NCBI RefSeq assembly: GCF_001430825.1
Contig: NZ_CP010535.1
Location: forward strand, 2,336,501-2,400,500
DNA length: 64,000 nt
DNA from: Sediminicola sp. YIK13
Lineage (GTDB): Bacteria; Bacteroidota; Bacteroidia; Flavobacteriales; Flavobacteriaceae
Direction: 5' to 3'
The translations under genes and the position numbers were made by a program. Each line of letters starts with the position of its first letter. Position 1 is the stretch's first letter. A model generated the notes under the pieces. The model made no database searches. It saw only the letters and a list, made by a program, of their open reading frames with translations, and was not told where the DNA came from. Of this stretch, positions 37,613 to 38,503 are shown one piece after another.

Positions 37613-37624
37613 TATTTTTTGTCT

Positions 37625-37674
37625 CCTCGAGCGCAGTCGAGAGGTATTCAGGAGGTGTCGACTGTGCTTGACCT
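37625..37674. repeat. Palindrome pair 1 (A1/A1')
   Basis: Forward motif A at 37625-37645, with core TCGAGCGCAGTCGAGA, is followed 7 bp later by a partly diverged inverted copy at 37653-37674 (three core mismatches). Together they can fold into a long hairpin. Each A motif also contains a small internal inverted repeat, CTCGA-gcgcag-TCGAG. It begins 12 bp after the metG stop and might act as its transcript end. Confidence 0.85.
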
Positions 37675-37779
37675 GACAAAACTAAATGAAGTCCAGTTTT
37701 GTTATGGCAAAAAGGCTTGACTTGACAAACCTTAAAGCATAAAAAGTTGGGGATGTCCCCTCGAGCGCAGTCGAGAGGT
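37671..37779 (+). repeat. 109-bp direct repeat, copy 1 (spacer plus A2)
   Basis: Begins ACCTGACAAAACTAAATGAA and ends in forward motif A2. It matches 38147-38255 over the full 109 bp with about five substitutions and no gap. The two copies flank the GIY-YIG gene. Confidence 0.9.
37759..37779 (+). repeat. Palindrome A2, upstream end of the GIY-YIG unit
   Basis: A forward copy of motif A with the intact core TCGAGCGCAGTCGAGA, ending 26 bp before the ATG of the GIY-YIG gene. Its inverted partner A2' is at 38129-38150, so the pair encloses the gene. Confidence 0.85.
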
Positions 37780-37805
37780 CTATCGGTTACTCTTAATTCA
37801 AATAC

Positions 37806-38165
37806 ATGAAACTCTATTTTGTCTACATTTTGCTATGTTCAGATGGGTTAACCTATACCGGAATCACAAATGATTTGGCGAGAAGAATAATGGAACATGA
37901 AAATGGAATGAACAATTTCAGTTTTACTTTTAAACGAAGACCCGTTAGATTAATTTTTCAACAAGAATTCAATAAGGTTGAACAAGCCATTCATTTTGAG
38001 AAAAAAATAAAGAAATGGAGCGCAAAAAAGAAATTGGCATTGGCATCTGGAGAATTTGATTTGTTACAAATTTTAGCTGAATCCAGAAATGCTACCCATT
38101 CCGATTACAACCCAGATGAGCAAAATCAAGGTCTCAACTCCGCTCTACCTGACAAAACCAAATGA
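37806..38165 (+). CDS. Small GIY-YIG nuclease (UPF0213/YhbQ-like) embedded in palindromic repeats
   Basis: A 119-residue single-domain nuclease. The GIY-YIG module is complete: FVYILLCSDGLTYTGITNDL gives YVYIL/YTGIT-type GIY and YIG elements with the conserved Arg in ARRIMEHENG, then TFKRRPVRLIF and the catalytic Glu region in QEFNKVEQAIHFEKKIKKW. No extra DNA-binding domain is present. It lies between inverted palindromes A2 and A2'. The last residues (GLNSALPDKTK) and the stop codon are read from the degenerate A2' motif and the 109-bp repeat, so coding and repeat sequence are fused. The arrangement suggests a role in moving or processing these repeats; that is inference. Confidence 0.85.
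   Translation: MKLYFVYILLCSDGLTYTGITNDLARRIMEHENGMNNFSFTFKRRPVRLIFQQEFNKVEQAIHFEKKIKKWSAKKKLALASGEFDLLQILAESRNATHSDYNPDEQNQGLNSALPDKTK
38129..38150 (-). repeat. Degenerate inverted palindrome A2' inside the GIY-YIG 3' end
   Basis: AGGTCTCAACTCCGCTCTAC with two further bases matches the intact inverted motif at 38263-38284 except at three positions. It lies within the last codons of the GIY-YIG gene, and the substitutions may reflect coding constraint or decay. Confidence 0.75.
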
Positions 38166-38255
38166 AGTCCAGTTTTGTTATGGCAAAAAGGCTTGACTCG
38201 ACAAAGCTTAAAGCATTAAAAGTTGAGGATGTCCCCTCGAGCGCAGTCGAGAGGT
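38147..38255 (+). repeat. 109-bp direct repeat, copy 2 (spacer plus A3)
   Basis: The second copy of the spacer at 37671-37779, about 95% identical by eye. It contains the GIY-YIG stop codon (38163-38165) and ends in forward motif A3. Confidence 0.9.
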
Positions 38256-38284
38256 ATTCAGGAGGTCTCGACTGCGCTCGACCT
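38235..38284. repeat. Palindrome pair 3 (A3/A3')
   Basis: Forward A3 (38235-38255) and inverted A3' (38263-38284) share a perfect 16-bp stem, TCGAGCGCAGTCGAGA with its complement, closed by a 13-nt loop. The bases after A3' repeat the start of the 109-bp spacer (about 25 bp) and then diverge. Confidence 0.9.
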
Positions 38285-38431
38285 GACAAAACTAAATCAA
38301 GTCCCTGTTTAAGAGAGGATGTAAAGCACAACCCATAGGCCAATCAAAAAAGAAGCTCGTAAATTTTTGCCAACATTCACATTTTTCAAACATCACTTAT
38401 TATCTTGCTGCTTAATATAAAACATACGTCC

Positions 38432-38487
38432 CCTCGAGCGCAGTCGAGAGGTCTTTATAGCGAAAAGGTCACGACTGCGCTCGAACC
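38432..38487. repeat. Palindrome pair 4 (A4/A4') upstream of tex
   Basis: Forward A4 (38432-38452) and inverted A4' (38466-38487) are 13 bp apart with core CGAGCGCAGTCG and complement intact. The pair ends 16 bp before the tex ATG, so a hairpin could form in the tex leader RNA. Confidence 0.85.
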
Positions 38488-38503
38488 GACAAATTAAAAT
38501 AGT

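Follow-up and report, generated by a model that had tools for sequence, protein, structure and literature searches.

Could a single-domain nuclease of the GIY-YIG class do for one group of short bacterial palindromes what a dedicated transposase does for the repetitive extragenic palindromes (REPs)? This question is raised by an array of eight palindromes in a 64,000-nucleotide stretch of DNA (hereafter the window, with positions counted from its first letter) from the flavobacterium Sediminicola sp. YIK13, where an earlier sequence-only reading had noticed a gene for such a nuclease inside one of several inverted pairs. The analysis below indicates that the region from about 37755 to 38153 is probably a minimal autonomous mobile element or its partly decayed remains, with the short inverted pairs beside it being gene-less derivatives comparable to REPINs, the inverted REP doublets. 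On a broader scale, we lean towards the view that single-domain GIY-YIG proteins constitute a new class of mobilizing enzymes, which would form minimal elements with GTC-tagged terminal hairpins, follow a clade-specific hairpin code and have the CGTC-REPs and kindred repeats of several phyla as their gene-less derivatives. The evidence lies chiefly in the linkage of tagged hairpins to both ends of GIY-YIG genes, the match between hairpin class and nuclease clade and the variable state of orthologous sites.

The hairpin array and the enclosed nuclease

The core of the palindrome, TCGAGCGCAGTCGAGA, has eight matches in the window at up to 3 mismatches, all within 37627-38484, whereas shuffled windows contain 0.07 on average and never more than 1. 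Five of these are exact, one (38469) has 1 mismatch and two (37656 and 38132) have 3 mismatches, and together with the open reading frame (ORF) they form the strictly alternating strand order + - + (ORF) - + - + -. Thus, the eight alternating copies of motif A and its inverse A' claimed by the sequence-only reading are borne out (37621-38490), as is the single-domain GIY-YIG gene within one inverted pair. Its choice of the core as the unit holds in part: the core is real, but the full hairpin A is a longer unit of 24 nt, GTC-N-NNYYGA-GCGNAGTC-GARRNN, from which some window copies deviate, and in every window pair its GTC tag lies on the outer side. The loops of 7-13 bp that it gave for the pairs have to be corrected, the gaps between cores being 13, 13 and 19 bp. 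The features of the array are the following:

37621..37644, + strand: hairpin A, left member of gene-less pair 1 (core match)
37654..37677, - strand: hairpin A', right member of gene-less pair 1 (3 core mismatches)
37672..37760, no strand: spacer, direct repeat of 38148-38236 (84/89), a duplicated pair + spacer unit
37755..37778, + strand: left-end tagged hairpin, class A (CC/GG), of the gene-bearing element (GTCCCCTCGAGCGCAGTCGAGAGG, exact core)
37806..38165, + strand: GIY-YIG nuclease gene, clade A, single domain, 119 aa (PF01541, E 7.6e-16)
38130..38153, - strand: right-end tagged hairpin of the gene-bearing element, decayed, overlapping the 3' end of the ORF (3 core mismatches)
38148..38236, no strand: second copy of the spacer direct repeat
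38231..38254, + strand: hairpin A, left member of gene-less pair 3 (CC/GG)
38264..38287, - strand: hairpin A', right member of gene-less pair 3 (GG/CC, hence a heterodimer)
38428..38451, + strand: hairpin A, left member of gene-less pair 4
38467..38490, - strand: hairpin A', right member of gene-less pair 4 (1 core mismatch)

The array is in part a local duplication, since the two 89-bp spacers on either side of the gene-bearing pair are identical at 84 of 89 positions. The A' motif reported to close the gene-bearing pair is present, but with a decayed core (38132-38147) that falls within the final codons of the ORF rather than clear of the gene; in relatives the stop codon of the gene precedes the right hairpin core in 23 of the 27 A-labelled loci with a detectable core.

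In the encoded protein GIY-YIG is the sole Pfam domain, and searches of PHROGs, PADLOC and NCBIfam recovered no match for it. An alignment of 20 diverse members displays 12 invariant positions, including Y7, Y17, G19, T21, R27, H31, E65, K66, W71 and K76. The predicted structure has block confidence values (pLDDT, predicted local distance difference test) of 88 to 98 up to residue 90 and a low-confidence tail beyond it. Foldseek matches to this model with E under 0.001 comprise two UPF0213 structures only, the nearest solved structures in both sequence and fold being the UPF0213-type single-domain proteins PDB 1zg2 and 1ywl (E 7.6e-12 and 6.5e-10), which are deposited as hypothetical proteins and have no repeat association in the entries examined. 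In a second structural comparison, Z scores of 6 to 8 were obtained for HIGLE (a plant nuclease), Slx1, I-TevI and UvrC, values at which the likeness is one of fold only. Given that Slx1 processes branched DNA, according to the titles of its structure entries, a hairpin or cruciform would be a reasonable substrate for the nuclease.

Tagged hairpins at GIY-YIG genes across genomes

The nearest homologues of the gene have the same palindromes in the same orientation in their flanks, and more distant clades have other GTC-tagged palindromes. These were scored with two detectors, one for the tag with a hairpin containing tandem G.A (classes A, B and C) and one for the tag with a stem of 8 bp or more (class D), a hairpin being counted when within 150 bp of the gene and its orientation being scored. 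Four sets of genes were analyzed, namely an A/B/C set (86 of 95 loci, 2 having been dropped without a tblastn hit and 7 with an ORF under 80 aa), which belongs mostly to clades with GA hairpins and includes a few WRDL-like genes (e.g. L044, L046 and L049); a set of WRDL-type genes, i.e. the clade with 8-bp stems, on Flavobacteriaceae contigs (78 of 80, 2 being too near a contig end); a plasmid set (14 records examined of 33 matched); and a validation set of 50 loci, one per genome and chosen roughly by score, from other Bacteroidota families outside that of the window. Outward-pointing hairpins are present at both ends of the gene in 51/86, 52/78, 9/14 and 22/50 of these sets, respectively, and in 0/45, 2/138, 0/8 and 0/44 of control ORFs, which are neighbors of at least 100 aa at the same loci and not size-matched small genes. 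A detector for 8-bp stems alone missed the A and B classes, and the tandem-G.A detector was added after reading the A/B/C flanks; as it was built from those flanks, the A/B/C set is not independent for it. The detectors having thus been shaped on parts of the first sets, the independent validation set was tested with unchanged rules: here an outward hairpin at either end occurs in 43/50 genes against 6/44 controls, and complementing the tag reduces both-end flanking to 1/50 and flanking at either end to 10/50, against 9/44 in controls. The proposed linkage of inverted hairpins to GIY-YIG genes is accordingly supported, with both-end flanking far above controls in all four sets. Other kindred short palindromes beside GIY-YIG genes are GTCATTCCCGCGAAGGCGGGAAT at L337 and GTCATGCTGAACTTGTTTCAGCAT at L345. 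At L116 the GIY-YIG gene is followed by a tandem array of the 21-bp unit TTCGAGAGCCTCAGTGACCTA, perhaps a hairpin class missed by the rules.

The hairpin class follows the nuclease clade. Of the A/B/C genes, 49/86 have GA-type hairpins and 0/86 have 8-bp stems at both ends; among the WRDL genes the corresponding figures are 0/78 and 52/78. On a tree of 119 nucleases (16 of them without a class, and with the WRDL set thinned to every fourth locus) the four hairpin classes need 10 changes, the minimum being 3, as against a mean of 55.6 with shuffled labels, none of 200 shuffles being as low as 10. Many forks of this tree are unresolved because the alignment has few columns, and several of the 10 changes are due to class C labels within the B and A clades, which by eye are B or A variants.

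The hairpins themselves display extensive covariation. All 27 full-pattern copies from stretches of the window's own genome have complementary outer dinucleotides (CC/GG 18, GT/AC 6, GG/CC 1, TC/GA 1, TA/TA 1), as do 137/148 class A copies overall, where shuffling gives a mean of 40 and at most 61, and 111/116 copies of class B. The apical stems of class B also covary across many different sequences, with 5 bp paired in 64/116 copies against a shuffle mean of 8. Judged by these patterns of pairing, the hairpin structure is under selection. Class A hairpins have only four Watson-Crick outer pairs in addition to the tandem G.A, and the base after their GTC tag is A in 87, T in 34, C in 25 and G in 2 of the 148 copies; their loop, CGNAG, is presumably akin to those of very stable DNA mini-hairpins. 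Pair architecture was assessed on 138 A and 132 B rows among the matches listed, some isolated ones being omitted. Here 15/20 A neighbors within 150 bp are in the order + then -, i.e. with tags outward, and 1 in the order - then +; the corresponding B figures are 18/33 and 10, and the predicted excess of inverted pairs is thus found in both classes. Short pairs with identical arms number 0/15 in A (expected 4.4) and 3/21 in B (expected 7.3), and gene-size pairs with identical arms number 0/15 in B (expected 6.2) and, with no avoidance, 10/26 in A (expected 10.9). Small as these numbers are, the avoidance of identical arms fits with selection against long perfect palindromes at short spacing.

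At the level of whole genomes, the window's own genome (3.57 Mb, one contig) contains 30 copies of the core at up to 1 mismatch and 44 at up to 3, compared to 0 and 2 for the reversed pattern. Motif A (GTCNNNYYGAGCGNAGTCGA) was recovered from 133 of the 249 family genomes surveyed, and its reversed pattern from none. All 45 genomes with an A-clade nuclease have it (median 19 copies), as opposed to 20 of the 94 without any homologue; hence, motif numbers are not equal where a linked GIY-YIG gene is lacking, equality being the outcome which the sequence-only reading had said would speak against it. Likewise, all 37 genomes with a B-clade nuclease contain motif B, compared to 16/94 without a homologue; the reversed control of motif B matched once apiece in five genomes. 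Genomes with only the A-clade nuclease are set apart by their A:B ratio from those with only the B-clade nuclease (median log2 +3.1 versus -1.5, p 1e-8). These counts ignore kinship among genomes, and the nuclease cut-offs (E up to 1e-30 for A, up to 2.5e-34 for B) were set after seeing the flanks.

Occupied, decayed and empty sites

Comparison of the neighborhoods, with RidA, aldehyde dehydrogenase (ALDH) and short-chain dehydrogenase (SDR) genes named from reading translations, revealed one operon that is occupied in different ways in different genera. In some of them the element lies just upstream of the ALDH gene, where it adjoins RidA (L118, L122-L124) or comes after other genes (L125), and in others it lies between the ALDH and SDR genes or just after ALDH (L117, L119-L121). 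In L119 RidA and ALDH abut without an element, in L125 the ALDH|SDR junction is by eye devoid of a palindrome, and in L120 the ALDH gene is preceded by a single palindrome on its own. The two junctions are alternately filled across genera. Similar elements are also seen on opposite sides of one and the same neighbor gene. Over a wider range of loci (L117-L125, L132-L143), both sides of one ALDH gene are repeatedly used by class A elements across genera. A different GTC-tagged repeat element of ~130-180 bp occupies the ALDH|SDR junction of L123/L132 (G270), where other genera have the nuclease element, and has further matches in G270, G280 and G277.

Within a single genus (g20) the RidA|ALDH junction was compared in 12 genomes. 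An open core frame is present in four (G270, G274, G275 and G278), with altered conserved residues in G278 and a shortened left hairpin in G275; frameshifts are seen in G272 and G277, an internal deletion in G276 and a 3' remnant in G019. In G280 (L141) there remains a pair retaining only the first and last codons of the gene. G279 has a possible trace, and G281 and G273 have nothing at this position. In another genus G178 has a gene-less pair at a junction where three congeners (G288, G286 and G287) have none; the comparison covers these three, some other genomes having a different neighbor there, and site 1 of L268 was left out of it on account of a different downstream gene. The same pairs are, therefore, not shared by all relatives at orthologous sites, which are intact, decayed, gene-less or empty.

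Known systems, possible mechanism and alternatives

The nearest analogue of this system is the REPIN/RAYT system, in which palindromes form inverted doublets and are accompanied by the RAYT enzyme (Bertels and Rainey 2011, PMC3116915). Both share inverted tagged doublets, an enzyme gene flanked by the same palindromes, a clade-specific palindrome type and gene-less doublets. RAYTs are REP-associated tyrosine transposases of the Y1/HUH type, whose genes are flanked by GTAG-tagged palindromes. In contrast, the enzyme here is a GIY-YIG protein, as indicated by both the Pfam scan and the structural matches, and the tag is an outer GTC, complementing of which removes the flank signal. Because enzyme and tag differ, the system is an analogue and not a member of the REPIN/RAYT group. 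It also stands apart from insertion sequences and miniature inverted-repeat transposable elements, in that there is no known transposase gene and the GIY-YIG ORF lies alone between the ends. In the open-access literature (PubMed Central; titles and abstract openings, among the matches listed; preprints and subscription papers being outside this scope) we found no link of GIY-YIG proteins to REP-type palindromes, and in the main text of the RepRanger paper (2025) none of the words starts with GIY, nuclease, RAYT or transposase. This agrees with the sequence-only reading, to which no described system of this type was known, without establishing priority.

A second point of comparison is offered by the CGTC-REPs. 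According to the parts of the original description used here, CGTC-tagged palindromes, with CGTC often being TGTC or CCTC, occur in five phyla, apparently without a dedicated transposase, and feature a CGTC/TGTC tag, an 8-9 bp stem, a 4-5 nt loop and head-to-head dimers, including heterodimers (Di Nocera et al. 2013, PMC3733652). In those parts only transposase genes are examined as partners, and 'GIY' is absent from the text (PMC3733652). By eye, the hairpins of the WRDL clade match these tag, stem and loop features. The window's class A and class B are short-stemmed with tandem G.A and fall outside the stem and loop lengths of the four CGTC families; class A is not a CGTC-REP by stem length, as it has four Watson-Crick pairs plus tandem G.A, though it shares the GTC tag. 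Head-to-head dimers occur in classes A and B, where short pairs are mostly heterodimers, albeit in small numbers, and also in CGTC-1 on the plasmid AZO_p3. The plasmid homologues include taxa with CGTC repeats, namely Azospirillum lipoferum, Novosphingobium aromaticivorans, Sinorhizobium meliloti and Neisseria (dRS3; N. gonorrhoeae), and in all four the GIY-YIG gene is bounded by or lies among CGTC-type palindromes, though the gonococcal gene is not outward-flanked by the rules. On AZO_p3 of A. lipoferum 4B (648 kb; L242) the gene and its palindromes lie between sufB and sufC; 3 of the 9 exact CGTC-1 sites of this plasmid are beside the gene, and elsewhere it has three + - CGTC-1 pairs, 57-60 bp apart. 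S. meliloti has an apparent second 3' fragment of the gene between tagged palindromes just upstream. By the rules, the genes of Photobacterium, Planktothrix and Rhizobium tumorigenes are without an outward hairpin, even though 127 CGTC-1 sites are present on the Photobacterium replicon. Seven of the 10 records searched had no match to the single CGTC-1 pattern, 5 of these 7 having outward hairpins of other sequence. In Planktothrix agardhii plasmid p1 (L249) the GIY-YIG gene is surrounded by GTCATTCTGAG repeats and has a type IIL restriction gene on one side and drmA of the DISARM system on the other. Taken together, the GIY-YIG genes with hairpins of their clade's own kind suggest themselves as the missing partners that spread widespread short bacterial repeats, and the members with 8-bp stems, whose genes in Proteobacteria are tied to palindromes resembling CGTC-REPs, make the strongest candidates for the missing CGTC-REP enzyme.

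These architectural observations allow a mechanism to be proposed, in which the nuclease would cut the hairpins and drive their spread. It would recognize its own hairpin class when the DNA is single-stranded or extruded and might nick at or near the GTC tag, and gene-less pairs might use the nuclease in trans. GIY-YIG enzymes hydrolyze DNA and form no protein-DNA bond; with no covalent intermediate to be expected, host replication and repair would be needed to complete reinsertion or copying into new places, unlike in the Y1 chemistry of RAYTs. Of the original REPIN/RAYT-like proposal, the linkage, the excess of pairs and the variation between sites thus count in its favor, while mobilization by the nuclease is a step that we infer.

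Several observations weigh against this proposal. In the window's genome 26 of the 30 core copies at up to 1 mismatch are in three clusters, two of them tandem arrays, and not widely dispersed, and the right hairpin of the gene-bearing copy has decayed. Motif A is also found in 68/110 genomes with only other GIY-YIG homologues (median 1) and, as noted, in some without a homologue (median 0; 19/54 among those of at least 2.5 Mb), and some motif B occurs in 20/32 A-only genomes, as does some motif A in 15/24 B-only genomes; with a motif so common in the absence of its nuclease, past loss of the enzyme or cross-activity has to be invoked. By the rules no outward hairpin is found at 12/86, 3/78, 4/14 and 7/50 genes of the A/B/C, WRDL, plasmid and validation sets. 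Inward hairpins on both sides occur in 16/86, 3/78, 3/14 and 10/50 and in none of the control sets, as whole pairs beside the gene would give, and the outward orientation is hence a bias rather than a rule. The g20 series shows the decay of one old insertion, not new insertions. One clean empty site offers no clean target-site duplication, and in G287, which is without the element, the junction's two stop codons are likewise separated, so that a flanking repeat is no proof of duplication. Finally, the class A hairpin does not stand out in stability under nearest-neighbor DNA folding (z -1.3 and 0.3), in contrast to single hairpins of class B (z -3.1) and of the CGTC type (z -4.2).

Alternatively, the nuclease might cut pre-existing pairs, with break repair then placing a copy of its gene in the loop of such a pair, the short pairs being targets that spread by other means. 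GIY-YIG is, after all, the nuclease class of homing endonucleases, and with the free-standing ones of the I-TevI type the protein shares its nuclease domain (the predicted model matches I-TevI at Z 7.1) and a plausible selfish spread; moreover, just one of the four similar pairs of the window holds the gene, between nearly identical spacers. Still, we regard such homing as unlikely. The palindrome-free junctions of L119 (RidA/ALDH) and L125 (ALDH/SDR), where relatives carry the element, imply, distant and by eye as these comparisons are, that a resident pair is seemingly not needed, and the gene-less pair of L141 with its leftover gene ends points in the opposite direction, i.e. to gene loss. 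The 119-aa protein has no second Pfam domain, no intron or fixed target gene was seen, and terminal hairpins bound the gene and gene-less derivatives exist, all of which set it apart from homing endonucleases.

A domesticated, immobile role, in which the nuclease processes or limits hairpins (e.g. cruciforms at forks) or the hairpins regulate the gene, with selection keeping both, might be read from the structural likeness to the branched-DNA nuclease Slx1 and from the old appearance of some sites, the junction upstream of ALDH being occupied in several genera. This appears improbable in light of the patchy presence, decay and loss at one junction within a genus, the different insertion sites among genera, the several GIY-YIG copies in many genomes and the inverted-pair architecture. 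There is very little likelihood that small genes and repeats simply gather in the same intergenic space, or that the palindromes are transcription terminators. Tagged hairpins do occur near other genes too, with any outward hairpin at 10/45, 28/138, 2/8 and 6/44 control ORFs, but both-end flanking is nearly confined to the GIY-YIG genes, even if the controls are not size-matched; the tags point outward upstream as well as downstream, and terminators need neither a GTC tag nor a clade code. On the strength of both-end flanking, tag orientation and clade specificity this last explanation was rejected.

Under the proposal of a GIY-YIG-driven mobile element, flank linkage, clade specificity and genome-level co-occurrence name a candidate enzyme for the CGTC repeats, a question that can now be put to the test using a small protein and short oligonucleotides. 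Should the proposal hold, REP-type systems would have arisen at least twice, on the unrelated Y1 and GIY-YIG nucleases, and a function would be provided for many small genes whose sole annotation is 'GIY-YIG nuclease family protein', with the hairpin being predictable from the enzyme.

Some further features of the window's genome deserve mention. The array lies between metG on one side and a gene for a Tex-like protein on the other (named by reading translations). Of the six GIY-YIG domains of the genome, only that of the window is near a listed motif site, and no transposase domain was found in 10 ORFs scanned from three other motif loci. At 287.4-289.2 kb (L015) and 3125.5-3126.3 kb (L018), where the genome's GIY-YIG domain listing reports no such domain, class A hairpins are amplified as tandem arrays, with units of ~53 bp and units of ~140-185 bp that contain inverted pairs. 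Other GIY-YIG genes, at L012 (near 2456 kb of the same genome) and L048, lie between direct repeats of 30 and 27 bp, respectively, which by eye resemble pieces of tRNA genes and perhaps typify a separate tRNA-tied GIY-YIG group.

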